A stretch of 50,106 nucleotides of DNA from Hyphomicrobiaceae bacterium (lineage in GTDB: Bacteria > Pseudomonadota > Alphaproteobacteria > Rhizobiales > HXMU1428-3): assembly GCA_021775775.1 (NCBI GenBank), contig JAJFHF010000097.1:1-50106 (forward strand), written 5' to 3'. Shown here one piece after another: positions 25,324 through 36,632 of the stretch (its first letter is position 1; each line of letters begins with the position of its first letter). Below the pieces are notes generated by a model. That model worked only from the letters and a program-made list of their open reading frames with translations, did not search any database and was not told where the DNA came from. The position numbers were made by a program, and so were the translations under genes.

Positions 25324-28300
25324 ATGACATCGAATGCTTTTTTTTCACAATTTGAAGTTTCCCAAGTCACTGATTTAGAGACGGCACCCTCTTTGGGGTT
25401 AGGCCGGGTGCTTGGCGGGCAAGAACCGCTTGCATTGGCTCAATTGATTGAGAGCCTTTCTTTGGGCAAAGGCGCTGGCAAGGCGGCTGATTTTGATGTT
25501 TTGCATGTGTGCCGCGATGACACCCAAGTGGAAATTTTAAAAGAGGGACTTACTTTTTTTGCCCCTGAGGTGAAAGTTTTAAGCTTCCCTGCCTGGGATT
25601 GTGTGCCCTATGACAGAGTTGGCCCCAAACCAGAGATTGTGGCGCAGCGTATAGCCACTTTGGCGCAATTGGAAAAGGGCAAGCGGCGCGGCGTTCGATT
25701 GATATTGACGACGCCGCGCGCGCTCATTCAAAAACTGCCGCCGCGGTCTTTTGTGCGCTCCAATATTAAAATTTTAAGCCCAGGCAAACGCATTGATCGG
25801 GCGCGGTTTTTGGCTCGGCTTAGTGCTATGGGTTATATCCGTTCTGAGATGGTGATTGATAAAGGTGAATTTGCGGTTCGCGGCGGGATTATCGATTTGT
25901 TTTTGGCAGGCTATAAGCAGCCGCTTCGGCTTGATTTTTTTGGTGATGAATTGGAAAGCATCCGCCAATTTGACCCTGCCTCCCAGCGCACCACCCATAA
26001 ATTAAACCGGGTGACGTTGCTGCCGGTTAGTGAGTTTGATTTTAGCGAAAAAGCGCGCGCTTTGTTTCGCAAAAACTATCTTGAACATTTCGGTGCGCCC
26101 CAAGGCCATGATGCGCTTTATGAGGCGGTGAGTGAGGGACAGAGTTTTCAAGGGATGGAGCATTGGCTGTCTTTCTTCCATGAAAATTTGGACAATTTGT
26201 TTGATTATATCCCGCATGTCTTGCTGTCTCGTGATCTGGATGTGGATCAAGCGATTACCGCTCAGTTTGAACAGGTTGATGAGCATTTTGAGGCCCGCAA
26301 ACAAGCGTTGGAGCAACAAAATTTTGGGGCACCGCCTTATCATCCTGTACCCAAACAAGAAGTTTTCATCTCTAAAGAGCAATGGGGGGAAAGGATTGCG
26401 ACTTTGCCCCGTTTGGCAATGAGCCCTTATGATCTGGAAGATAGCGCCAGGACGAAAGAGGTTCGTGATTTTGATCAGGTGGGGGCGCTTGATGGCAAGG
26501 CTGGGTTGCAATTTGTGGTGGAGCGGCGTGATGATCGGGCCAGCCTGTTTCAGTCCGTTGTGCGCAAGATTAAAGAGCGGCAAAAAAAGGGTTTGCGGGT
26601 TGTTGTCGGTGCGTGGAGCAATGGTTCGCGTGAGCGGCTGCGTAGCTTGTTGAGAGATGCTGGGCTAGAAGGTGATCAGCTTTGCGAGAATTGGCAAGAG
26701 GTTACGGCACTCGATAAACATCTGGTTGGGTTTGTGGTGCTGGGTTTAGAAAGTGGGTTTCAAGCGGGTGATGTTCTCATCATTGGGGAACAGGATATTC
26801 TCGGCGATCGGTTGGTCCGGCGCAAAAAACCGCGCAAATCTGATGCTGAGGTGCTTAAAGAGGCCTCTACTTTGTCGCTGGGTGATTTTATTGTGCACCA
26901 AGAGCATGGCATTGGGCGTTTTGAAGGGTTAAACACCATAACGGCGGCTGGAGCGCCGCATGATTGTTTGGAGTTGCATTATCATGGGGGGGATAAGCTT
27001 TTTCTTCCCGTTGAGAATATTGAGCTGCTCTCACGTTATGGAACGGAAGGGAGCCATGCAGCCCTTGATAAATTGGGCGGGACGTCGTGGCAAAGCCGCA
27101 AAGCTAAAATTAAGCAAAAATTGCTCGATATTGCTGGGCATCTGATTGGCATTGCAGCGAAACGGGCGTTGCGCAAGGCGCAGGTGCTTGAGGTTTCTCA
27201 AGAGCAATGGGATGAATTTAGTGCTCGTTTCCCCTATGAAGAGACAGAGGACCAGTTGACCACCATTGAGACGGTGCGTGATGATTTGGGCTCTGGCAAA
27301 CCGATGGATCGGTTGGTATGCGGTGATGTGGGGTTTGGTAAAACGGAAGTGGCGTTGCGGGCTAGTTTTGTGGCCGCGATGAATGGGGTTCAGGTGGCGA
27401 TTGTGGCGCCAACGACGCTCTTAGCGCGCCAGCATTATAACGGCTTTAAAGAGCGCTTTGAGGGTTTGCCGATTAAAATAGCGCATGCTTCGCGGTTGGT
27501 GCCTGCCAAACAGCTTTCACTTGTCAAAGAGGGTTTGGCAAGCGGCGATGTGGATATTGTGATTGGCACTCATGCGCTTTTGGGTAAATCAATTGCGTTT
27601 CGTGATTTGGGATTGTTGATCATTGATGAAGAGCAACATTTCGGCGTTCAGCATAAAGAACGCTTAAAAGAGCTAAAAGATGATGTGCATGTGCTGACGC
27701 TTTCAGCAACACCAATACCGCGCACGTTGCAGATGTCGCTAACGGGCGTGCGTGATTTATCGTTGATTACCACGCCGCCGGTTGACCGGTTGGCGGTGCG
27801 CACTTATGTGAGCCCGTTTGATGCGGTGGTTATTCGTAATGCTTTGTTGCGCGAGCGGTTTCGCGGGGGCCAAAGCTTTTTTGTTTGCCCACGGGTGAGC
27901 GATTTGGATGAAGCTGAAGCCTTGTTAAAAGAACATGTCCCTGAATTGAAGGTGGTGCGCGCTCATGGGCAAATGGCGACGGGTGAACTTGAAGATGTGA
28001 TGAACGCGTTTTATGATCGTAAATATGATTGTTTGCTCTCAACCACGATCATTGAATCTGGGCTTGATATACCTAGTGCCAATACGATGGTGATTTACCG
28101 GGCTGATAAATTTGGGCTGGCGCAACTTTATCAATTGCGCGGCCGGGTCGGGCGCTCTAAAGCGCGTGCTTACGCTTATATCACCACACCGGTGAATAAG
28201 GCTTTGACGCCAGCAGCGGATAAACGGCTGAAGGTGTTAGCCACTCTTGATAGCCTTGGCGCTGGGTTTACTCTGGCGGCGCATGACCTTGACCTGCGCG

Positions 28301-28905
28301 GGGCTGGTAATTTGGTGGGTGAGGAGCAATCAGGCCACATACGTGAGATCGGCTATGAGCTGTATCAATCTATGCTAGAAGATGCCATTGCTGAGTTGAA
28401 AGAGGGGGGGGCAAGCAAACCATCTGAATGGACGCCAAACATTCAACTGGGTACTTCTGTGCTTATTCCTGAGACTTATGTGAATGATTTACAATTGCGG
28501 CTTAGTCTCTATCGCCGGCTTTCTAGCTTAGAGACCCGCGATGAGATTGATGAGTTCAAAGCAGAATTGCATGATCGTTTTGGTCCGTTGCCCGAGGAGG
28601 TCACTCACTTAATGGAGATCATGCATATTAAGAGTTTGTGCCGCGCTGCTGGTGTTGACCAAATTGAAGCAGGGCCTAAGGGTGTGCAAATTGGCTTTCA
28701 TATGAATAAGTTTGCTAACCCTGATGGGTTGATTGCGTTGGTTAATTCTCAATCTTTAAAAATGAAAATCTTGCCCAATCAAAAAATTCTCTATCTGGCC
28801 AATTGGAGCGAGCCGCAAGAGAGATTGGAAGGGGTTACCAAGATCATTGAAGATTTAAAAAGGCTTGTTGCTCAAGATGATGTCAAACAGGCCGCTTCCG
28901 CCTAA
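25324..28905 (+). CDS. mfd: Transcription-repair coupling factor Mfd
   Basis: 1193 residues, normal length. Order: UvrB-homology domains (about 1-350; WDCVPYDRVGP, AVRGGIIDLF), the RNA-polymerase interaction domain (about 530-580; GDFIVHQEHGIGRFEGL), then the RecG-like translocase core with Walker A CGDVGFGKTEVALR, APTTLLARQH, LLIIDEEQHFGVQHKE, LSATPIPRTLQMSLTG, IESGLDIPSANT and YQLRGRVGRSKARAYAY, and a C-terminal autoinhibitory domain (from about 1010; IPETYVNDLQLRLSLYRRLS). Mfd removes stalled RNA polymerase and recruits UvrA. The stop overlaps the stop region of the convergent PleD-like gene by four bases. Confidence 0.98.
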   Translation: MTSNAFFSQFEVSQVTDLETAPSLGLGRVLGGQEPLALAQLIESLSLGKGAGKAADFDVLHVCRDDTQVEILKEGLTFFAPEVKVLSFPAWDCVPYDRVGPKPEIVAQRIATLAQLEKGKRRGVRLILTTPRALIQKLPPRSFVRSNIKILSPGKRIDRARFLARLSAMGYIRSEMVIDKGEFAVRGGIIDLFLAGYKQPLRLDFFGDELESIRQFDPASQRTTHKLNRVTLLPVSEFDFSEKARALFRKNYLEHFGAPQGHDALYEAVSEGQSFQGMEHWLSFFHENLDNLFDYIPHVLLSRDLDVDQAITAQFEQVDEHFEARKQALEQQNFGAPPYHPVPKQEVFISKEQWGERIATLPRLAMSPYDLEDSARTKEVRDFDQVGALDGKAGLQFVVERRDDRASLFQSVVRKIKERQKKGLRVVVGAWSNGSRERLRSLLRDAGLEGDQLCENWQEVTALDKHLVGFVVLGLESGFQAGDVLIIGEQDILGDRLVRRKKPRKSDAEVLKEASTLSLGDFIVHQEHGIGRFEGLNTITAAGAPHDCLELHYHGGDKLFLPVENIELLSRYGTEGSHAALDKLGGTSWQSRKAKIKQKLLDIAGHLIGIAAKRALRKAQVLEVSQEQWDEFSARFPYEETEDQLTTIETVRDDLGSGKPMDRLVCGDVGFGKTEVALRASFVAAMNGVQVAIVAPTTLLARQHYNGFKERFEGLPIKIAHASRLVPAKQLSLVKEGLASGDVDIVIGTHALLGKSIAFRDLGLLIIDEEQHFGVQHKERLKELKDDVHVLTLSATPIPRTLQMSLTGVRDLSLITTPPVDRLAVRTYVSPFDAVVIRNALLRERFRGGQSFFVCPRVSDLDEAEALLKEHVPELKVVRAHGQMATGELEDVMNAFYDRKYDCLLSTTIIESGLDIPSANTMVIYRADKFGLAQLYQLRGRVGRSKARAYAYITTPVNKALTPAADKRLKVLATLDSLGAGFTLAAHDLDLRGAGNLVGEEQSGHIREIGYELYQSMLEDAIAELKEGGASKPSEWTPNIQLGTSVLIPETYVNDLQLRLSLYRRLSSLETRDEIDEFKAELHDRFGPLPEEVTHLMEIMHIKSLCRAAGVDQIEAGPKGVQIGFHMNKFANPDGLIALVNSQSLKMKILPNQKILYLANWSEPQERLEGVTKIIEDLKRLVAQDDVKQAASA

Positions 28906-30272
28906 GCTGTTTTAACGTCGGGTAGGTGATTGAACGTGCTGGGTTGTTTGGTGAACAACTCTTGGGCGCTTGTCTCGCCATTTGATTCAATGATCTGTGC
29001 GGTTAATTCGACGCTTATGGGGGAGCAATCTGTTTCACAGATGAATTGCGTTCGTTTTACAATGCCCTCAATGCGTTTTAAGACATTGGCGGCATCTTCA
29101 TAGTTTGTATCAGGTAAGGTTAGGGTGAAGGTGCGCCCTGAGATGCGTGCGGCTAGATCTTCACCACGAATGATGGTCATTAGAATTTCTGAGACTTGAC
29201 GCAGGACATTATCGCCAGCGGCAAAGCCGAATTGTTCGTTGATGGTGTTGAGATTATCAATGTTTGTGGTGATGACGGTAAATTTGCGCTTGGCGGCATT
29301 GTGATCTTTTATGAGTTGGGCCAAATGTTCTTGATAAAAACTATAGGTGAATAAACCTGTGAGGGCACAATTGGTTGGAATGTGGCGGGCAGATAGATAT
29401 GATTTGGTGATGAGAGATCTGAAGCGCCATTCTTTTATGAGACTGGTGGTGCGTAAGATAAGCTCGTTACTATTTACTGGTGCGTCAATGATATCTGTTA
29501 TGCCCGCTTCATAGGCGATGTGGCTATGGCTGAGTTTTGAAGGGTAGGCGACCAGTATGATGGGAAGGCTGTAAAATTGAGGATCGCGTTTTATTTTTTC
29601 AACGAAATCAAAAAAACGTGTCGGCATTCTTCCTCCGTTGATAATCACCATATCAAAGGTTTGGCGTCGCAGATATTCTGCTGCTGTCTCTAGAGATAAT
29701 GTGCCAACGAGGGTTGCGATGGGGGCGAGGGTTTCTTCTATTGATGAATAGCCATTGGGGCGCCCGGTGATTAAGATTGTAGCGTCTTTTATGGGTGTGC
29801 AATATTTTGATTCAATAAATTCTTGAAGTGCTGGGGCGTTATATTTTTTTGAGATTTCGTTGCGACGGTTTAATTCTGATTGGATGGTGGTGAGCCGTGA
29901 CTGGGCTTTGATACGAGCGATGACTGATGGGATGCGGATTTCACCAAAGATTAAATCATCAAAATGATGCTCTTGTTGTTCTTGTAACAAATTGTGCGCA
30001 ATGCCTATGCAAATGAGCCTGATATTTTGAGTTTGTGGGTTTAATTTTATTTTTTGAGCTAATTTTAAACAGGTCTCCATCTGCTCTTTGTTTTTTAATT
30101 CTGAGGCATCAAAGATTAGAATCTTGAAGCTTTTGGAATGTTGCAGGTTTTGACTTAGCTGTGTGTACAGACTTTGAGAGGTGGTAAAACCGGCTGTTTC
30201 AAGCGCATTTTTTAGTTTGTTTTCAGATGGTTGCCTGGAATTAATTACTAGGACTTCTATTTCATCTGGCAT
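28902..30272 (-). CDS. PleD-like REC-REC-GGDEF protein with inactive GGDEF and intact I-site
   Basis: 456 residues, the length and layout of PleD: two receiver-like domains (about 1-130 and 160-285) and a C-terminal GGDEF domain (about 305-435). Receiver 1 keeps ILIFDASEL, with a possible Asp; receiver 2 has MVIINGG where the phospho-Asp should be, so it is degenerate. The GGDEF domain keeps NIDNLNTINEQFGFAAGD, but the signature motif reads SGRTF, which cannot support diguanylate cyclase chemistry. Five residues before it stands RGED, a correctly spaced RxxD inhibitory site that binds cyclic-di-GMP in active homologues. I infer a catalytically dead c-di-GMP sensor. No membrane segment. Monocistronic, it ends against mfd, and a partner is not evident. 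Confidence 0.82.
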   Translation of the reverse strand: MPDEIEVLVINSRQPSENKLKNALETAGFTTSQSLYTQLSQNLQHSKSFKILIFDASELKNKEQMETCLKLAQKIKLNPQTQNIRLICIGIAHNLLQEQQEHHFDDLIFGEIRIPSVIARIKAQSRLTTIQSELNRRNEISKKYNAPALQEFIESKYCTPIKDATILITGRPNGYSSIEETLAPIATLVGTLSLETAAEYLRRQTFDMVIINGGRMPTRFFDFVEKIKRDPQFYSLPIILVAYPSKLSHSHIAYEAGITDIIDAPVNSNELILRTTSLIKEWRFRSLITKSYLSARHIPTNCALTGLFTYSFYQEHLAQLIKDHNAAKRKFTVITTNIDNLNTINEQFGFAAGDNVLRQVSEILMTIIRGEDLAARISGRTFTLTLPDTNYEDAANVLKRIEGIVKRTQFICETDCSPISVELTAQIIESNGETSAQELFTKQPSTFNHLPDVKTA

Positions 30273-30358: not shown

Positions 30359-31921
30359 TCAAGTGGTTGGTTGAATAAATAGTTGGCTTTTGTCTACCTT
30401 GCCAGCTTTGTTGCGCGGCAGTGACGTGACAATTGTTAAGTCCTTGGGGTGTTTATAAGGCGCCAACTGGTTGGTTAGAAGCTGCATGATTTGGTCTTTA
30501 ATCTCATGATTTTTAATGGGGTGGTCTTTTCTCTTATTTGTTGGTTTGTTTAGGACAATCACTGCAGCAATGATGGAGAGATCTGGTCGGATTTGTTTTT
30601 CATAAACAGCGGCCTCTTGCACATATTCATGAGATAAAAGGAGCGTTTCAATCTCTATGGGAGAAACACGGTAACCACCGGCATTCATGATCTCATCGGC
30701 GCGCCCAAAATGAGTTAGGTTTTGCTCTTCATCTATCGAGCCAATGTCTCCGGTGATGAACCAGGGGCCGCGAAATTGTTGTTTTTGTTCCTTGTCTCTT
30801 TGCCAATAGGAGAGCATCAAACCTGGATCTGTATTATGGATGGCGATGAGGCCTTGTTGGTTTGGCTCTAGTGGTGTGAGGGCGGAATCTTGTGGTAATG
30901 GCTGTAGGGGCAAGATAACTACGCGGCGCCCTTTTTGAATGCGCCCTTTTGCCTGCTCTGGGACAGTTATATTTGGCGCGGTTGAAACATAAGTAGAGAT
31001 TTCACTTTGGCCCATGGCTTCGTACAATGAACATCCTGTTTGGGTTTTCCATTCAGTATTCACTTGTTTGGAGAGTGCTTCGCCTGCGCTTAAGCCATGA
31101 CGCAATGAGGCCATGTGTTGCTTTGTAGGTTGGCTATATTTTAAAATTTTTCGGTAAACGCCTGGGACGGCGACAAAAATGGTTGCTTGATGGGTTTGAA
31201 TTAAATTGGGCCAAAGAGATGGGCTTTTCTCTCCATGATAGATGAGGGCTGTTGCTCCTTGTAACCAGGGGTCCATTAGGCCGACACCTAGTGTGTATGT
31301 CCAATTAAAATCGCCGGCGTGTAAGACACGGTCGCCGTGTTTGATATGATGCCAGCCTTGTTGCATGGGAATACGCCCTTGTAGGGTGCGATGGGCATGA
31401 AGGACCCCTTTGGGGTGGCTGGTGGTGCCACTGGTGTAGATTAGGTATGCGGGATCATTTGGTTGGCTCTCATAATAGTCTGTTATCGGGGGCTCATGCA
31501 TAAAGGCCAAAATATCTGCTTGGGTGATGACATGTGGGTTGGTCTCGTCTGGACAAGGTAAATCGCGCGCACAAGCCCACCAGGTCGCTCCCTTGTGATG
31601 CTTGGTATCTTTGGCAAAGAACTCTAACTCTGATGTCGTGAGGTGAGCTGATAAGGGGATGGGGACAAGGCCGGCAGCAATGGCACCAAAGAAGGTGAGG
31701 GCAAAGGCGGCGTCACTGTGCAGGCGTAACAATAAAAAGTCGCCTGGTTTCATGCCTTTCTTTATGAGGCCACCTGCGATTGCGCGGATGGTGCAATCGA
31801 GCTGGGCATAGGTCCATTGGGTTTGGGGGCATTCTTTGAGAGGGGCGCCGATTATTTCTAAGGCGAGCGCTGCTGGGATGTTGTGAGCTTGTTGCCCGAT
31901 GGCTGCTTTGCTTAAATTCAA
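30359..31921 (-). CDS. AMP-forming acyl-CoA synthetase/ligase
   Basis: 520 residues. ANL-superfamily motifs are all present: P-loop YLIYTSGTTSHPKGVLHAHR, YEAMGQSEIS (A5), WFITGDIG (A7), GRADEIMNAGGYRVSPIEIE (A8), and the catalytic lysine in LPRNKAGKVDKSQL. The enzyme should activate a carboxylic acid as acyl-AMP and pass it to CoA. The pattern resembles benzoate-CoA-ligase-like and medium-chain acyl-CoA ligases, but the substrate is not readable. The start is a TTG at 31921 with AGAG seven bases upstream; no better start exists in this frame after the upstream stop at 31949. The gene is 27 bases behind a degenerate paralogue on the same strand, so the two are probably co-translated or co-transcribed. 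Confidence 0.88.
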   Translation of the reverse strand: MNLSKAAIGQQAHNIPAALALEIIGAPLKECPQTQWTYAQLDCTIRAIAGGLIKKGMKPGDFLLLRLHSDAAFALTFFGAIAAGLVPIPLSAHLTTSELEFFAKDTKHHKGATWWACARDLPCPDETNPHVITQADILAFMHEPPITDYYESQPNDPAYLIYTSGTTSHPKGVLHAHRTLQGRIPMQQGWHHIKHGDRVLHAGDFNWTYTLGVGLMDPWLQGATALIYHGEKSPSLWPNLIQTHQATIFVAVPGVYRKILKYSQPTKQHMASLRHGLSAGEALSKQVNTEWKTQTGCSLYEAMGQSEISTYVSTAPNITVPEQAKGRIQKGRRVVILPLQPLPQDSALTPLEPNQQGLIAIHNTDPGLMLSYWQRDKEQKQQFRGPWFITGDIGSIDEEQNLTHFGRADEIMNAGGYRVSPIEIETLLLSHEYVQEAAVYEKQIRPDLSIIAAVIVLNKPTNKRKDHPIKNHEIKDQIMQLLTNQLAPYKHPKDLTIVTSLPRNKAGKVDKSQLFIQPTT

Positions 31922-31948
31922 AAGATTGCTCTTTATGTCATGTGCTGA

Positions 31949-33622
31949 TTAATGAGAGGGTAAAATGTTTTTACGTTCAATTATACCATCTTGAGTGCGC
32001 GGTATTTGCGTGACGGTGACGAGCTTTTCTGGGATCTTTACTGGAGAAATGTTTTGATCGATCAGGTGTTGTTTGAAATCTTCATATGAGAGTGGGTCGC
32101 CTGGGCGCGGGATAATAGCGGCAAATAAACGCTCGCCAAGGAGAGGATCCATAATTGAAAAGGCTGCGGCATCAACAAAACCTGGATAGGTTTGATAGAG
32201 GCGATCTAGTTCAAGACCTGATAATTGATTGGCCCCGTGATAGATGGTGTCTTGATTGTGCTCAATTTCTAGGGTGCTTAAGGCTTGATCTATGAGACGA
32301 GCGGTTAGATGGGTTTGTTCCCAATGCTCATTGAAATTGCTAAGGGGGCTTATTGTCATTTGATCTTGCCAGTTGGCAAAGCCGACAATTAAACCGCTAA
32401 CCTCTAAGCGGCCCTTTAGCGTCTGATTAAGATCGCCGGCTTTTTGAGTGGCCCCTTGCAGGCGAGTTTGGATAAAAGGTGGGTTTATCACGCTATCTTT
32501 ATGGGCTAGCTCGCTATTGCCTAGTTTTAAAATCCCCTCGTCTTCGTTGGGGACTTGGCTTGTGATTAAACACAGACCGTTGAGATTAAAGAAAACCGAA
32601 CTGTTTGGGGATAGGGGGATTTTCTTTGATGTATTTTTACTTGATTTTTTATTTGATTTTTTACGGTGCGCTGGGGTGGAAGCTATTAAAATTAAGTGGG
32701 GTAGGTTTTGTAGGGTAAATTCTTGAGGCTCAAAAGCGCCGTGTAATTTTTGTTCCAAACCTTGGGGGAGCACAGCTTGATCTATGGTGTGGTTTTGAAA
32801 CCGATCGAGCAAGAATTTTTGCTTTAGCTGTGAGGTGATATGTAATGTGCCGCCTTGGGTAATCCAGGGAACAAAAGCTGCTATCAAACCTGGCAGCGTT
32901 GTTGGGCTATAGGCTGTTAGAATTGAGGGGCTGTCACTGACTTTGGTTTGTTGTGCAATCAGGTGAGCATTGGCCATCATCTGAATATGGGTGTAGGCGA
33001 CAGGGTGGGGCGCTCCGTCTTGGTCACTGGACCAGCCGATGAGGGCTACTTGTTCTTGTGAGCGACAAATCGTGAAATCGTTGTTTGCTGGCGCCGGTGT
33101 CTCACATGCAATGGTTTGATGAATGTCTGGGAGTGGGGTGACCCCATCTGGTAGGTTTTGATCTTGCCCTAAGCCAAAAATAAACCGTAAATTAAGGTGG
33201 TCAGCGGCTATTTCAAATAAAGAGGCAAATGGGTCATAGGTGGGTGTGGATTGATGAACAATCACTCCTTTTGCATTGAGCTTATTGAAAGCTTGCTCAA
33301 TTTCAGATTTGCGCCAATGAGTGGGTAAACAACAAGGGACGAGCCCGGCATTAAAGAGCGATAATAAAATCAATGGGGTTTCTGCAATGTTGGGCAATTG
33401 CACAAGGATAATATCACCGTCATTTAGGCCAAATTGACGAAAAAACTGGGCGGTTTGTTGAATATAACGCTGGGCATGTGTGTATGTCAGGTCTGTTATG
33501 GTGCCTAAACCGAGCCGTTCGGCATTACCAAGCCGTTCGGCATTGGGACAATCTGTTAAGGCGATTGCGTCAGGTTTTTTTTGCGCAACCGATAAAAATA
33601 TTTGATCTAACGTTTGACTCAT
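31949..33622 (-). CDS. Degenerate AMP-binding (acyl-CoA ligase-like) protein
   Basis: 557 residues, uninterrupted frame. The N-terminal third keeps the ANL fold (YTHAQRYIQQTAQFFRQFGL, GDIILVQLPN, LFNAGLVPCCLPTHWRKSEI), and the C-terminal part keeps a recognisable end (GFVDAAAFSIMDPLLGERLF, PEKLVTVTQIPRTQDGIIER). But the catalytic motifs are lost: the P-loop is replaced by IGWSSDQDGAPHPVAYTH (about 195-212), there is no A5 aromatic/TE motif or A7 GD motif, and the C-terminal catalytic lysine position in the PRTxxGK motif is isoleucine. A Lys/Ser-rich insertion (KKSNKKSSKNTSKK) lies in the middle, and residues 27-38 are a NAERLG duplication. I infer a pseudoenzyme, perhaps a partner of the active ligase 27 bases downstream. 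It follows the yejA-like gene by 56 bases on the same strand. Confidence 0.75.
   Translation of the reverse strand: MSQTLDQIFLSVAQKKPDAIALTDCPNAERLGNAERLGLGTITDLTYTHAQRYIQQTAQFFRQFGLNDGDIILVQLPNIAETPLILLSLFNAGLVPCCLPTHWRKSEIEQAFNKLNAKGVIVHQSTPTYDPFASLFEIAADHLNLRFIFGLGQDQNLPDGVTPLPDIHQTIACETPAPANNDFTICRSQEQVALIGWSSDQDGAPHPVAYTHIQMMANAHLIAQQTKVSDSPSILTAYSPTTLPGLIAAFVPWITQGGTLHITSQLKQKFLLDRFQNHTIDQAVLPQGLEQKLHGAFEPQEFTLQNLPHLILIASTPAHRKKSNKKSSKNTSKKIPLSPNSSVFFNLNGLCLITSQVPNEDEGILKLGNSELAHKDSVINPPFIQTRLQGATQKAGDLNQTLKGRLEVSGLIVGFANWQDQMTISPLSNFNEHWEQTHLTARLIDQALSTLEIEHNQDTIYHGANQLSGLELDRLYQTYPGFVDAAAFSIMDPLLGERLFAAIIPRPGDPLSYEDFKQHLIDQNISPVKIPEKLVTVTQIPRTQDGIIERKNILPSH
33513..33548. repeat. 18-bp in-frame tandem duplication in the degenerate ligase gene
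   Basis: AGCCGTTCGGCATTACCA (33513-33530) is repeated as AGCCGTTCGGCATTGGGA (33531-33548), 15 of 18 bases alike. It adds six residues (NAERLG twice) without breaking the frame. Confidence 0.85.
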
Positions 33623-33678: not shown

Positions 33679-35526
33679 TTATGGCTTTTTAGCGGCTGCC
33701 TCAATCGAGCGCGTATCCCACCAGGTATCAAGTAATGTGCCATAAAAAGAAGCTTTACCAGGGTGCCCCAAATAGGTCCAATGCGCAAGCCATTGGCGCT
33801 TTAAATGATAGAGTGGGATCACGTAATCCCCTGAAAGAAGCAATCTATCTAAACTGCGCACACTTGATGTGAATGATTTGGTGTCTTTTGCGGCTAAAAG
33901 GGCCGTTATCGCGTTATCGACATTGGGGTCTTTTATGCCTGCAAAGTTAAATGAACCTTGGGTACCTGCTTGTTTTGAGCTCCAGCGGAAGAGTTGTTCG
34001 TTGCCAGGAGATAATGAACCTGACCAATTGTTTTGTAACATATCAAAATCAAAACTGAGTTTGCGCTTTTGATATTGGGTCGAATCGACTTGGCGCAAGC
34101 TTGTCTTTACACCGATTAATTTTAGGTTTTCGATAAAGTTAAGTAACAAGGCTTCTTGAGATTTGCTGACGGTTAAAATTTCAAATTCAAACGGGGTGTT
34201 TGTGGCGCTGTTGATGAGTTGGCCGTCTTTTAAAACGTAACCAGCTTGTTTTAGAAGGCTTAAAGCTTTGCGGATGTTGCGCCTGTCTAGACTTTTGGTG
34301 CGGTTGGTGGGTTGTTGTTTTGTCCCAGTGAACAGGGAGGGATGATCTGTTTTGAATTGTTCACTTAAGATGGTTTGTTCAAGGGTGTCAGCTGGATGAC
34401 CATATGAAGAGAGGATGGAACGATCAAAATAGCTTTGGGTGCGGGTGTATAGGTTGTGGTATAATTTGCGATTGATGTCTTCAAAATTGAACATGTGATT
34501 AAATGCGGTCCGTACGCGCTGATCGTTGAATTGTGGGCGCCTTGTGTTAAAGACAAGCGCAGACATGCCAGAGGGAATTTTCAGCTCAAATTCTTTTTTA
34601 ACAACGCGTCCATCCTTGATGGCGTTAAAATTATAGCTGGTGGACCATTTGCCTGGGTCGCCCTCATAGGTCACGTCGTGCAGACCTTTTTTAAATGCTT
34701 CAAATAGAGTGTTGGCATCACGGTAATAGGTGAAGCTTATGGTGTTAAAATTATAACGCCCTCTATTGACGGGTAAATCATTGCCCCAATAGTCACGGTT
34801 GCGCTCATAGGTGACTTGTTTGCCAGCGTCGAGTTTGGCTAAGCGGTAGGGGCCTGACCCTAGGGGAGGGGTCAGGGTGGTTTTGCCAAATTGTTCTGCA
34901 GTCATTGCGTGTTTGGGTAAGATGGGCATTAGCCCTATGATCAGGGGCATTTCACGATCGCCATCAGCATCGAAGGTGAATTTAACCCCTGTTGAGCCGA
35001 TTTTTTCAATTTTGCTCACTTTTGAATAATAGGTGCGGTGGTTTGGACGTCCATTTTTTTTCAATAATTCATGAGAAAAAATGACATCTTCAATTGTAAC
35101 TGGCATTCCGTCTGAAAATTTAGCTTTTTCATTAATGTGGAATGTGATTGAGGAGCGGTCGTTGGGGACTGTTATGGTTTTTGCGATCAAGCCATAGAGA
35201 GAAAAGGGTTCGTCCAAGGCTCGACCAAGTAGGCTTTCATATAGATAGGCGCGCACGCCAGCGGCACTCGATCCTTTGATATTCAATGGGTTTAGGTTGG
35301 AGAACGTACCTTGCACGCCTAAATTTAAAGTACCGCCTTGGGGGGCTTTGGGGTTTGCATAGGTGAAATGATCAAAGGTTTGTGGATATTTTAAAGCTCC
35401 ATGCATGGCGATGCCATGACTTTCAGATGTTTCCGCTTTTAGGCCTGAAGAGACGATTATGAGCATTGAAATGAGACATAAAGCACATGCTAGACCTGTT
35501 TTTTGAGCTGTCATTATCATTGGCAT
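33679..35526 (-). CDS. YejA-like periplasmic oligopeptide-binding protein
   Basis: 615 residues with a signal peptide (CALCLISMLIIVSSGLKA, cleavage near KAE). The mature protein is a family 5 solute-binding protein of the YejA type: HGIAMHGALKYPQTFDHFTYANPKAPQG-like start, LYESLLGRALDEPFSLYGL, FSDGMPVTIEDVIFSHELL, PLGSGPYRLAKLDAGK and YERNRDYWGNDLPVNRGRYNF. YejA proteins deliver peptides (for example microcin C-type or host peptides) to the YejBEF importer, but no permease or ATPase genes are in the window, so it is an orphan here. AAAGG about ten bases upstream supports ATG 35526. Downstream on the same strand, after 56 bases, come the two ligase-type genes. Confidence 0.85.
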   Translation of the reverse strand: MPMIMTAQKTGLACALCLISMLIIVSSGLKAETSESHGIAMHGALKYPQTFDHFTYANPKAPQGGTLNLGVQGTFSNLNPLNIKGSSAAGVRAYLYESLLGRALDEPFSLYGLIAKTITVPNDRSSITFHINEKAKFSDGMPVTIEDVIFSHELLKKNGRPNHRTYYSKVSKIEKIGSTGVKFTFDADGDREMPLIIGLMPILPKHAMTAEQFGKTTLTPPLGSGPYRLAKLDAGKQVTYERNRDYWGNDLPVNRGRYNFNTISFTYYRDANTLFEAFKKGLHDVTYEGDPGKWSTSYNFNAIKDGRVVKKEFELKIPSGMSALVFNTRRPQFNDQRVRTAFNHMFNFEDINRKLYHNLYTRTQSYFDRSILSSYGHPADTLEQTILSEQFKTDHPSLFTGTKQQPTNRTKSLDRRNIRKALSLLKQAGYVLKDGQLINSATNTPFEFEILTVSKSQEALLLNFIENLKLIGVKTSLRQVDSTQYQKRKLSFDFDMLQNNWSGSLSPGNEQLFRWSSKQAGTQGSFNFAGIKDPNVDNAITALLAAKDTKSFTSSVRSLDRLLLSGDYVIPLYHLKRQWLAHWTYLGHPGKASFYGTLLDTWWDTRSIEAAAKKP

Positions 35527-35918
35527 GTGTTTTTAAACCTTTTGCTCAATTAAGTTGGTAACCATTGTGTGATTAATAGCATTTAAAACGTATTTATGGC
35601 TTTTAAAAGTGATGTTTTGAAGGTAAAAATGAAAGTAATATAAAATTTTTAAGTTATATGGAAAAGCCAAAAACCGTGTCTTTCATATCACGGGGCGAGA
35701 ATAGTTAAGTGATCTAGGCGATCAAATAGTTCAAATTTGATGCTGGTCATGCCATTGCCTTATTTCAATGTATTCAGGCATAGAAACTTTATTTAAATAA
35801 CCTATGTTGAATGGCATTAAAATTTGCTATTCTTTAGGGGACAATTTTATTCCCCTTTATAAAAATAATATGATTGAGAAATTGGGGTAGCTTAATGTTA
35901 CAAGAGAGAGGCATCACT
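35527..35918. other. Intergenic region between divergent yejA-like and ialB-type genes
   Basis: About 390 AT-rich bases between divergent genes; both promoters should be here. A 12-bp palindrome TTATTTAAATAA lies at 35789-35800, and a hairpin-forming AGGGGA/TCCCCT pair at 35836-35856. A TTGAAT / TATTCT pair at about 35808-35834 has a 15-base spacer, too short to claim as a promoter. Confidence 0.45.
35836..35856. promoter_or_regulatory. Inverted repeat in the ialB leader
   Basis: AGGGGA, nine AT-rich bases, TCCCCT: perfect 6-bp arms, ending 62 bases before the ialB ATG. It may be an operator or a leader hairpin; no known regulator consensus was recognised. Confidence 0.35.
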
Positions 35919-36632
35919 ATGTGTTTGCGGAAAATTATAAAAAATCAATTTAGATTGGTTTTGACTTTGGCTTTAGGTCTGGTAGTGGCCTCATTGCCAG
36001 TAAATGCAGCTGATAAAGCTAAGAAAAAAGCGTCTAGCGAGCCTAAAAGCGCTTGGATTAAGATTTGTGACGAGGTCAAATTTAAAGATGTCACGAAGAA
36101 TGCAAAAAAAGACGGTGCCAAAGCCGAGGCGAAAAAGAGAAAAATCTGTTTAACTCAGCATGATAGTTTGAATACATATACCGGGGCCCCGCTTATATCG
36201 GCTTCTGTTAGAACTGTAACAGGTGATGAAAAATCACGTTTTATGGTTTCTGTACCTTTAGGGATGGTTATTCCAGCGGGTGTATTGGTAAAAGTTGATG
36301 ATGAAAAACCTTTTACCATCAAATATTCTTTTTGCCATCAGGTTGGTTGTGTTGCCGAAATTAATATGGAAGCCGCTTTGTTTGAGAGCTTGAAAAAAGG
36401 TAAAAAACTTCATGTTAAAGTGCTTGCTATTTCTGGTAAGCCTGTTGTTTTTCCCGTTTCTTTGAATGGCTTTAATAAAGCTCATGGCGGGCCGTCCATT
36501 TCTAGTGAAAAATATGGGAAAGCACTTAAATCAGCAGCCTTGCAAATTCGTAAAATTCGGTCTGATCAAGCTAAGAAAAAACGCGATGAAAAAATTATGA
36601 ACGCGGGTAAAAAGACAGAAAAGAAGAAATAA
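35919..36632 (+). CDS. Invasion-associated locus B (IalB)-family exported protein
   Basis: 237 residues from ATG 35919 (MCLRKIIKNQF), with GAGAGG seven bases upstream; the track start at 35874 is a TTG that ignores this site. A signal peptide (LVLTLALGLVVASLPVNA) is cleaved at about VNA-AD. The IalB core is seen in WIKICDEV, KICLTQHD, SVPLGMVIPAGVLVKVDD, YSFCHQVGCVAEI and VLAISGKPVVFPVSLNGF; four conserved cysteines probably form disulfides. An unusual Lys/Ala-rich charged tail (AKKKRDEKIMNAGKKTEKKK) follows. IalB is named for Bartonella erythrocyte invasion, but the family is widespread in free-living alphaproteobacteria, so no pathogenic role should be inferred. An intrinsic terminator lies downstream. 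Confidence 0.88.
   Translation: MCLRKIIKNQFRLVLTLALGLVVASLPVNAADKAKKKASSEPKSAWIKICDEVKFKDVTKNAKKDGAKAEAKKRKICLTQHDSLNTYTGAPLISASVRTVTGDEKSRFMVSVPLGMVIPAGVLVKVDDEKPFTIKYSFCHQVGCVAEINMEAALFESLKKGKKLHVKVLAISGKPVVFPVSLNGFNKAHGGPSISSEKYGKALKSAALQIRKIRSDQAKKKRDEKIMNAGKKTEKKK

Follow-up and report, generated by a model that had tools for sequence, protein, structure and literature searches.

An apparently dead acyl-adenylating protein family is maintained across the Hyphomicrobiales and usually adjoins the gene of a peptide-binding transport protein

Among kinases and phosphatases, pseudoenzymes have been studied extensively. In ANL enzymes, the A7 aspartate serves ribose binding and the C-terminal domain is needed for adenylation. 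No described ANL-fold pseudoenzyme family was found in the open literature, an incomplete body of work that lacks most subscription journals, and the novelty of such a family is therefore provisional. Pseudoenzymes as such are a known kind (PMC10211241), and YejA of Sinorhizobium meliloti, a solved relative of the protein encoded next to the gene described here, has been crystallised with short peptides bound (PMC10128002). The gene of interest, D, appears from its sequence to belong to an ancient and apparently dead acyl-adenylating family that is kept by selection and found across the Hyphomicrobiales. The family usually lies beside the gene of a peptide-binding transport protein and often occurs without an active ligase.

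The window, that is, the whole stretch of 50,106 nucleotides analysed here, comes from a Hyphomicrobiaceae bacterium (contig JAJFHF010000097.1) and contains two ANL genes at 30359-33622, A and D, with 27 bases separating their frames (Table 1). Both frames, one complete and one degenerate, were confirmed as a first-pass annotation had described them. Transcription runs in the order SBP (the solute-binding protein gene), D, A, GGDEF, placing D upstream of A. Across loci, genes for UbiH-like, LpxL-like and CitE-like proteins and the divergent IalB gene are followed by SBP-D-(A)-(GGDEF)-(FrnE), which converges on mfd, with recG behind; the order SBP-D-(A)-(dead GGDEF)-mfd is fixed.

Table 1. Coordinates of the features of the locus within the window.
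Feature	Position	Strand	Description
A, active-type ANL ligase	30359..31921	minus	520 aa, TTG start; benzoate / medium-chain acyl-CoA ligase-like, all motifs
D, pseudo-ANL protein (putative)	31949..33622	minus	557 aa, ATG start; ANL domains full length, catalytic motifs gone
SBP, YejA/MbnE-type extracellular solute-binding protein	33679..35526	minus	directly upstream of D
PleD-like GGDEF protein, dead active site	28902..30272	minus	downstream of A; SGRTF replaces GG(D/E)EF
RGED-LAARI-SGRTF: intact I-site, normal spacing to degenerate GGDEF motif	29127..29168	minus	
mfd	25324..28905	plus	convergent with operon; fixed end of conserved locus
IalB-domain protein	35874..36632	plus	divergent from SBP gene; other end of conserved locus
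D P-loop (A3) place, reads WSSDQDGAPHP, residues 197-207	33002..33034	minus	motif lost in 66/66 homologues
D signature R146...G152...P-D159-G160	33143..33187	minus	residue conservation in 54 representatives
D codon at A10 catalytic lysine place, Ile547	31982..31984	minus	Lys in 6/66 D, 32/32 A homologues

D is not peculiar to the window. A protein search returned full-length homologues 52-55% identical to it in the same genus and more in many other families of the order, and a profile built from 18 homologues and applied at E<=1e-70 found D in no fewer than 194 of the 398 Hyphomicrobiales genomes sampled. True members in families f22, f42 and f51, checked by eye, score below this cut-off (1e-49 to 1e-64). 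Sampled genomes from the rest of the class gave two matches to the profile only, both intact enzymes, and a scan of genome contigs placed one D locus (L069) in the metagenome-assembled Hyphomicrobiales bacterium OFTM288, with one further generic match. A single score cut-off for membership was rejected after a motif check because intact enzymes and true members overlap in score: intact enzymes outside the order reach 1e-103 against the D profile, and families f2, f5, f6 and f29 contain unrelated intact ligases that score 1e-46 to 1e-58.

In a tree of ANL proteins all D proteins form one clade (support 100/100) whose stem measures 1.27 changes per site. Its nearest outsiders are intact Cupriavidus, Sphingopyxis and Natrinema proteins, a grouping that is itself supported at 100/100. 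A falls in a distant, benzoate-CoA-ligase-like clade of the same tree, and D diverges faster, with end branches of about 1.0 against 0.5 for A. Profile matches to solved structures also differ, the closest relatives of D being aryl-acid AMP ligases along the full length (E 1e-46 to 1e-53) and the best relatives of A being benzoate-CoA ligases. D scores 80 bits against the cut-off of 723.55 for TIGR02275 (EntE/DhbE aryl-acid AMP ligase) and A stays under every NCBIfam cut-off. Because tree and solved-structure profiles place the two apart, D did not arise by degeneration of a copy of A; that origin was rejected, and with it the earlier description of D as a paralogue in that sense, since D nests with intact EntE/DhbE-like class I enzymes and A elsewhere.

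The presence of D says little about that of A. A profile search found A in 110 of the 398 genomes, with both genes in 58, D only in 136, A only in 52 and neither in 152; without correction for kinship among the genomes, the 58 co-occurrences compare with about 54 expected (odds ratio 1.25, p=0.37; 1.53 and p=0.07 at a looser cut-off). One alternative interpretation of D is that it serves as heterodimer partner or allosteric regulator of A, another ligase being served where A has been lost or has moved. Pseudoenzyme-enzyme heterodimers are established in other families (PMC10211241), the two genes adjoin on the same strand in 26 of the 58 genomes that have both, spanning eight family codes, and in two loci (L085, L139) their frames overlap by 4 bases, which suggests translational coupling. 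We nevertheless consider this interpretation unlikely, because the presence of the two genes is statistically independent, 136 of the 194 D genomes have no A orthologue, whole families (f2, f5, f23, f31) have A directly after SBP with no D between them, and the two proteins come from different ANL branches; in other families, f41, f11 and f28 among them, A is located elsewhere in the genome. Co-occurrence thus does not make D and A an obligate pair: the association is weak, and A is an optional neighbour rather than an obligate partner. Where the genes adjoin, A and D may form a dedicated heterodimer, which cannot be the general role of the D family. The first-pass annotation had proposed a two-gene pair, to be abandoned if D showed no association with the active ligase; the pair does recur in 26 of the 398 genomes, but little association was found and the proposal largely falls. 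A TTG start codon, which the annotation suggested may set the ratio of A to D, was likewise rejected as a conserved device: TTG is the only common start that fits A in the window, but other members of the genus start A with ATG or GTG, 6-16 residues longer. In two loci of f21 (L082, L112) A may also start with TTG.

At the level of fold, D remains an ANL protein: PF00501 (AMP-binding) and PF13193 (AMP-binding_C) score 65 and 30 bits in the window protein, both above cut-off, against 180 and 49 bits in A. The motifs tell the two apart. Those of A are complete (YTSGTTSHPKG, YEAMGQSE, ITGD, GRADEIMNAGGYR and PRNKAGK), and the matching places in D read WSSDQDGAPHP, NLNGLCL, EQTHLTA and PRTQDGI, leaving the window protein without P-loop, A5, A7 or A10 lysine and with the A8 glycine turn partly retained. 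Among D homologues the P-loop (S/T)GTTGxPK, present in A, occurs in 0 of 66; the A7 aspartate is replaced by Leu, Ile, Val and others in all 66; and the A10 lysine is kept in six, with Ile in the window. This recurrence of the same losses in 66 homologues indicates that motif loss in the window protein is more than chance. The losses first read from the window therefore stand family-wide for the P-loop, for A7 and, mostly, for the A10 lysine; that of A5 stands in the window only, the place being acidic in 52 of 66 homologues. Measured against what a catalytically competent ANL enzyme needs, D falls short at the P-loop, the A7 aspartate and the A10 lysine. A structure prediction of D from two sequences only (window and L069) gave a pLDDT of 34 and was not used, so that fold and pocket of D rest on sequence profiles.

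A second alternative is that D is still catalytic, for instance by carrying out the thioester half-reaction on acyl-AMP supplied ready-made, or by using residues that have migrated. The acidic A5 place, the A10 lysine in 6 of 66 homologues and the threonine of A7 and glycine of A8, both common among them, would fit such an enzyme, and other pseudoenzymes offer examples of catalytic residues that have migrated (PMC10211241), but we regard residual catalysis as distinctly improbable: the P-loop and A7 aspartate are gone from all D proteins, and the C-terminal ANL domain is cut or missing in f12, f34, f35, f42 and f50 (L088, L103, L149, L174-L178, L180), being absent in whole families. Conservation also points away from the ATP site, with column information averaging 1.89 bits over D but only 1.30 bits at the A3 place, and both A3 and A8 columns less conserved than the D protein average, which argues that the ATP site is not what selection on D protects.

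D is under purifying selection and is maintained, as first proposed. In close pairs its dN/dS is 0.044, 0.053, 0.052, 0.070 and 0.099, far from 1 and in a range like that of neighbouring genes, more distant pairs being saturated. These values lie below those of A in the genus of the window (0.11-0.16) and in f7 (0.13); in f21 the values are 0.11 for D and 0.07 for A. One pair (L134/L135; 0.75 for D, 0.34-0.56 for neighbours) was set aside because ORF starts are uncertain there and all genes are raised. D also carries conserved residues that intact relatives do not share. Among 54 representatives, R146 is conserved in 96%, G152 in 96%, D159 in 93% and G160 in 100%, where intact relatives have T/L/E at position 146, and R146, D159 and further residues such as R498 are conserved in D but not in those relatives; P286 is conserved in 100% of D proteins and W103 is also conserved. 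The D-specific conserved signature sits in the N-terminal domain.

The frame of D is unbroken in almost every one of about 200 genomes, and its presence changes few times on a tree of mfd. It is broken, a finding that would have counted against maintenance, in three species only, two of them of one genus, where D is split into two frames (L136, L164/L188, L171/L186) and which may reflect real recent loss or sequencing error. That D is a decaying relic held by its operon position and slowly disappearing, as these split frames, the C-terminal shortening in several families, the lack of D at the locus in some families (f2 and f23 among them) and its long branches might suggest, is very improbable and largely contradicted by dN/dS of 0.04-0.10 within the range of its neighbours, by the open frames and few changes of presence, and by conserved residues that intact relatives lack.

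D combines a fold recognised by profile, the loss of catalytic residues and a gene under selection, the features by which a pseudoenzyme is recognised, and we consider it probable that D is a pseudoenzyme of EntE/DhbE-type descent that lost ATP handling once and was kept for a non-catalytic role. Observed support for this reading, as we count it, consists of the repeated loss of the C-terminal domain, monophyly, motif loss, selection, the signature and gene order. The ancestor would have been a stand-alone aryl-acid-AMP-ligase-like enzyme of the EntE/DhbE type; ATP handling would have been lost at or before the base of the Hyphomicrobiales, and selection for the non-catalytic role would have retained D since. 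We infer that its large N-terminal domain may still bind a small carboxylate or acyl ligand, or a protein partner, and that D may act as sensor or scaffold for an operon led by a YejA-type peptide-binding protein. The best reading of the locus is thus an ancestral pseudo-ANL protein with a putative binding or regulatory role of its own, encoded next to mfd in an operon of the form yejA-like/D/(A)/(pseudo-GGDEF).

The neighbours of D bear on what that role might be. SBP lies directly upstream of D on the same strand in 68 of 68 D loci measured, at a median gap of 24.5 bases and with overlap in 19 of 68. Its sequence aligns throughout with solved YejA and MbnE (E 1e-109 to 1e-163), and by analogy the SBP paralogue beside D would bind peptides; there are no permease genes beside the SBP gene. 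Further YejA-like copies, with 38-41% identity to SBP, lie elsewhere in the same genome (contigs C252 and C205 of G000). SBP is not obligatory and D can persist without it, since D has no SBP gene alongside in f42 (L177, L178, L180), in f51 (L038, L182) and in one f50 genome (L176). In all of these loci D keeps its usual place, which in f42 and f51 adjoins the IalB gene, and it seems to have outlasted the gene that normally precedes it.

Farther down the operon, the GGDEF protein of the window has lost its catalytic motif and kept an RGED I-site (RxxD) at normal spacing. Among 31 aligned proteins at the locus the I-site is present in 28 and GG(D/E)EF in one, the second GGDEF gene of L106. Because the I-site is kept and the catalytic motif lost, the protein is likely a c-di-GMP receptor, judging from the known role of this site. 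In 26 of the 48 loci where mfd can be seen, D is joined by a dead GGDEF gene, which occurs in no locus truly lacking D; the one apparent exception, L101, comes from a contig fragment of G006, a genome that carries D on a different contig. The association is significant on loci (Fisher p=0.004) and not by independent pairs on the mfd tree, where D changes about three times and its independent losses are too scarce to test the link phylogenetically. A more far-reaching and speculative possibility, to which we give a low probability, is that two dead enzymes make up an envelope-signalling module ancestral in the Hyphomicrobiales: D, as a pseudo-ANL sensor of acyl or aryl ligands, and a PleD-like pseudo-diguanylate cyclase bearing only a c-di-GMP I-site. 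Both would act in one operon with the YejA-type peptide-binding protein, and peptide uptake or use would depend jointly on c-di-GMP and ligand state.

Because the family spans the order, occupies a fixed genomic place, lost catalysis in a single event that can be placed and has intact sister enzymes, the role of an acyl-adenylating fold after adenylation becomes directly testable. We caution against annotating D genes as AMP-dependent synthetases.

Comparison with described enzymes places D and A differently. The solved enzymes EntE, DhbE and PchD (TIGR02275) are matched by the D profile along their full length, but D lacks the P-loop, the A7 aspartate and mostly the A10 lysine, its C-terminal domain is optional and, in contrast to these enzymes, no siderophore genes lie near it. 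The nearest intact sequences are plasmid proteins of Cupriavidus, Sphingopyxis and Natrinema annotated as 'class I adenylate-forming enzyme family'. They share about 30% full-length identity with the D protein of L078 and, unlike D, keep all motifs. On the Cupriavidus and Sphingopyxis plasmids (L151, L152) these intact relatives stand among genes for nitronate monooxygenase and alpha/beta hydrolase, a catabolic-looking setting. A shares full motifs with benzoate and medium-chain acyl-CoA ligases (best profile match E 1e-83), although it stays below every NCBIfam cut-off, so that these matches do not assign it a substrate. As for regulatory pseudoenzymes, FAM20A and MTMR13 (PMC10211241) have a demonstrated enzyme partner, whereas any partner of D is putative; like D, they have lost catalytic residues and retained fold and selection.
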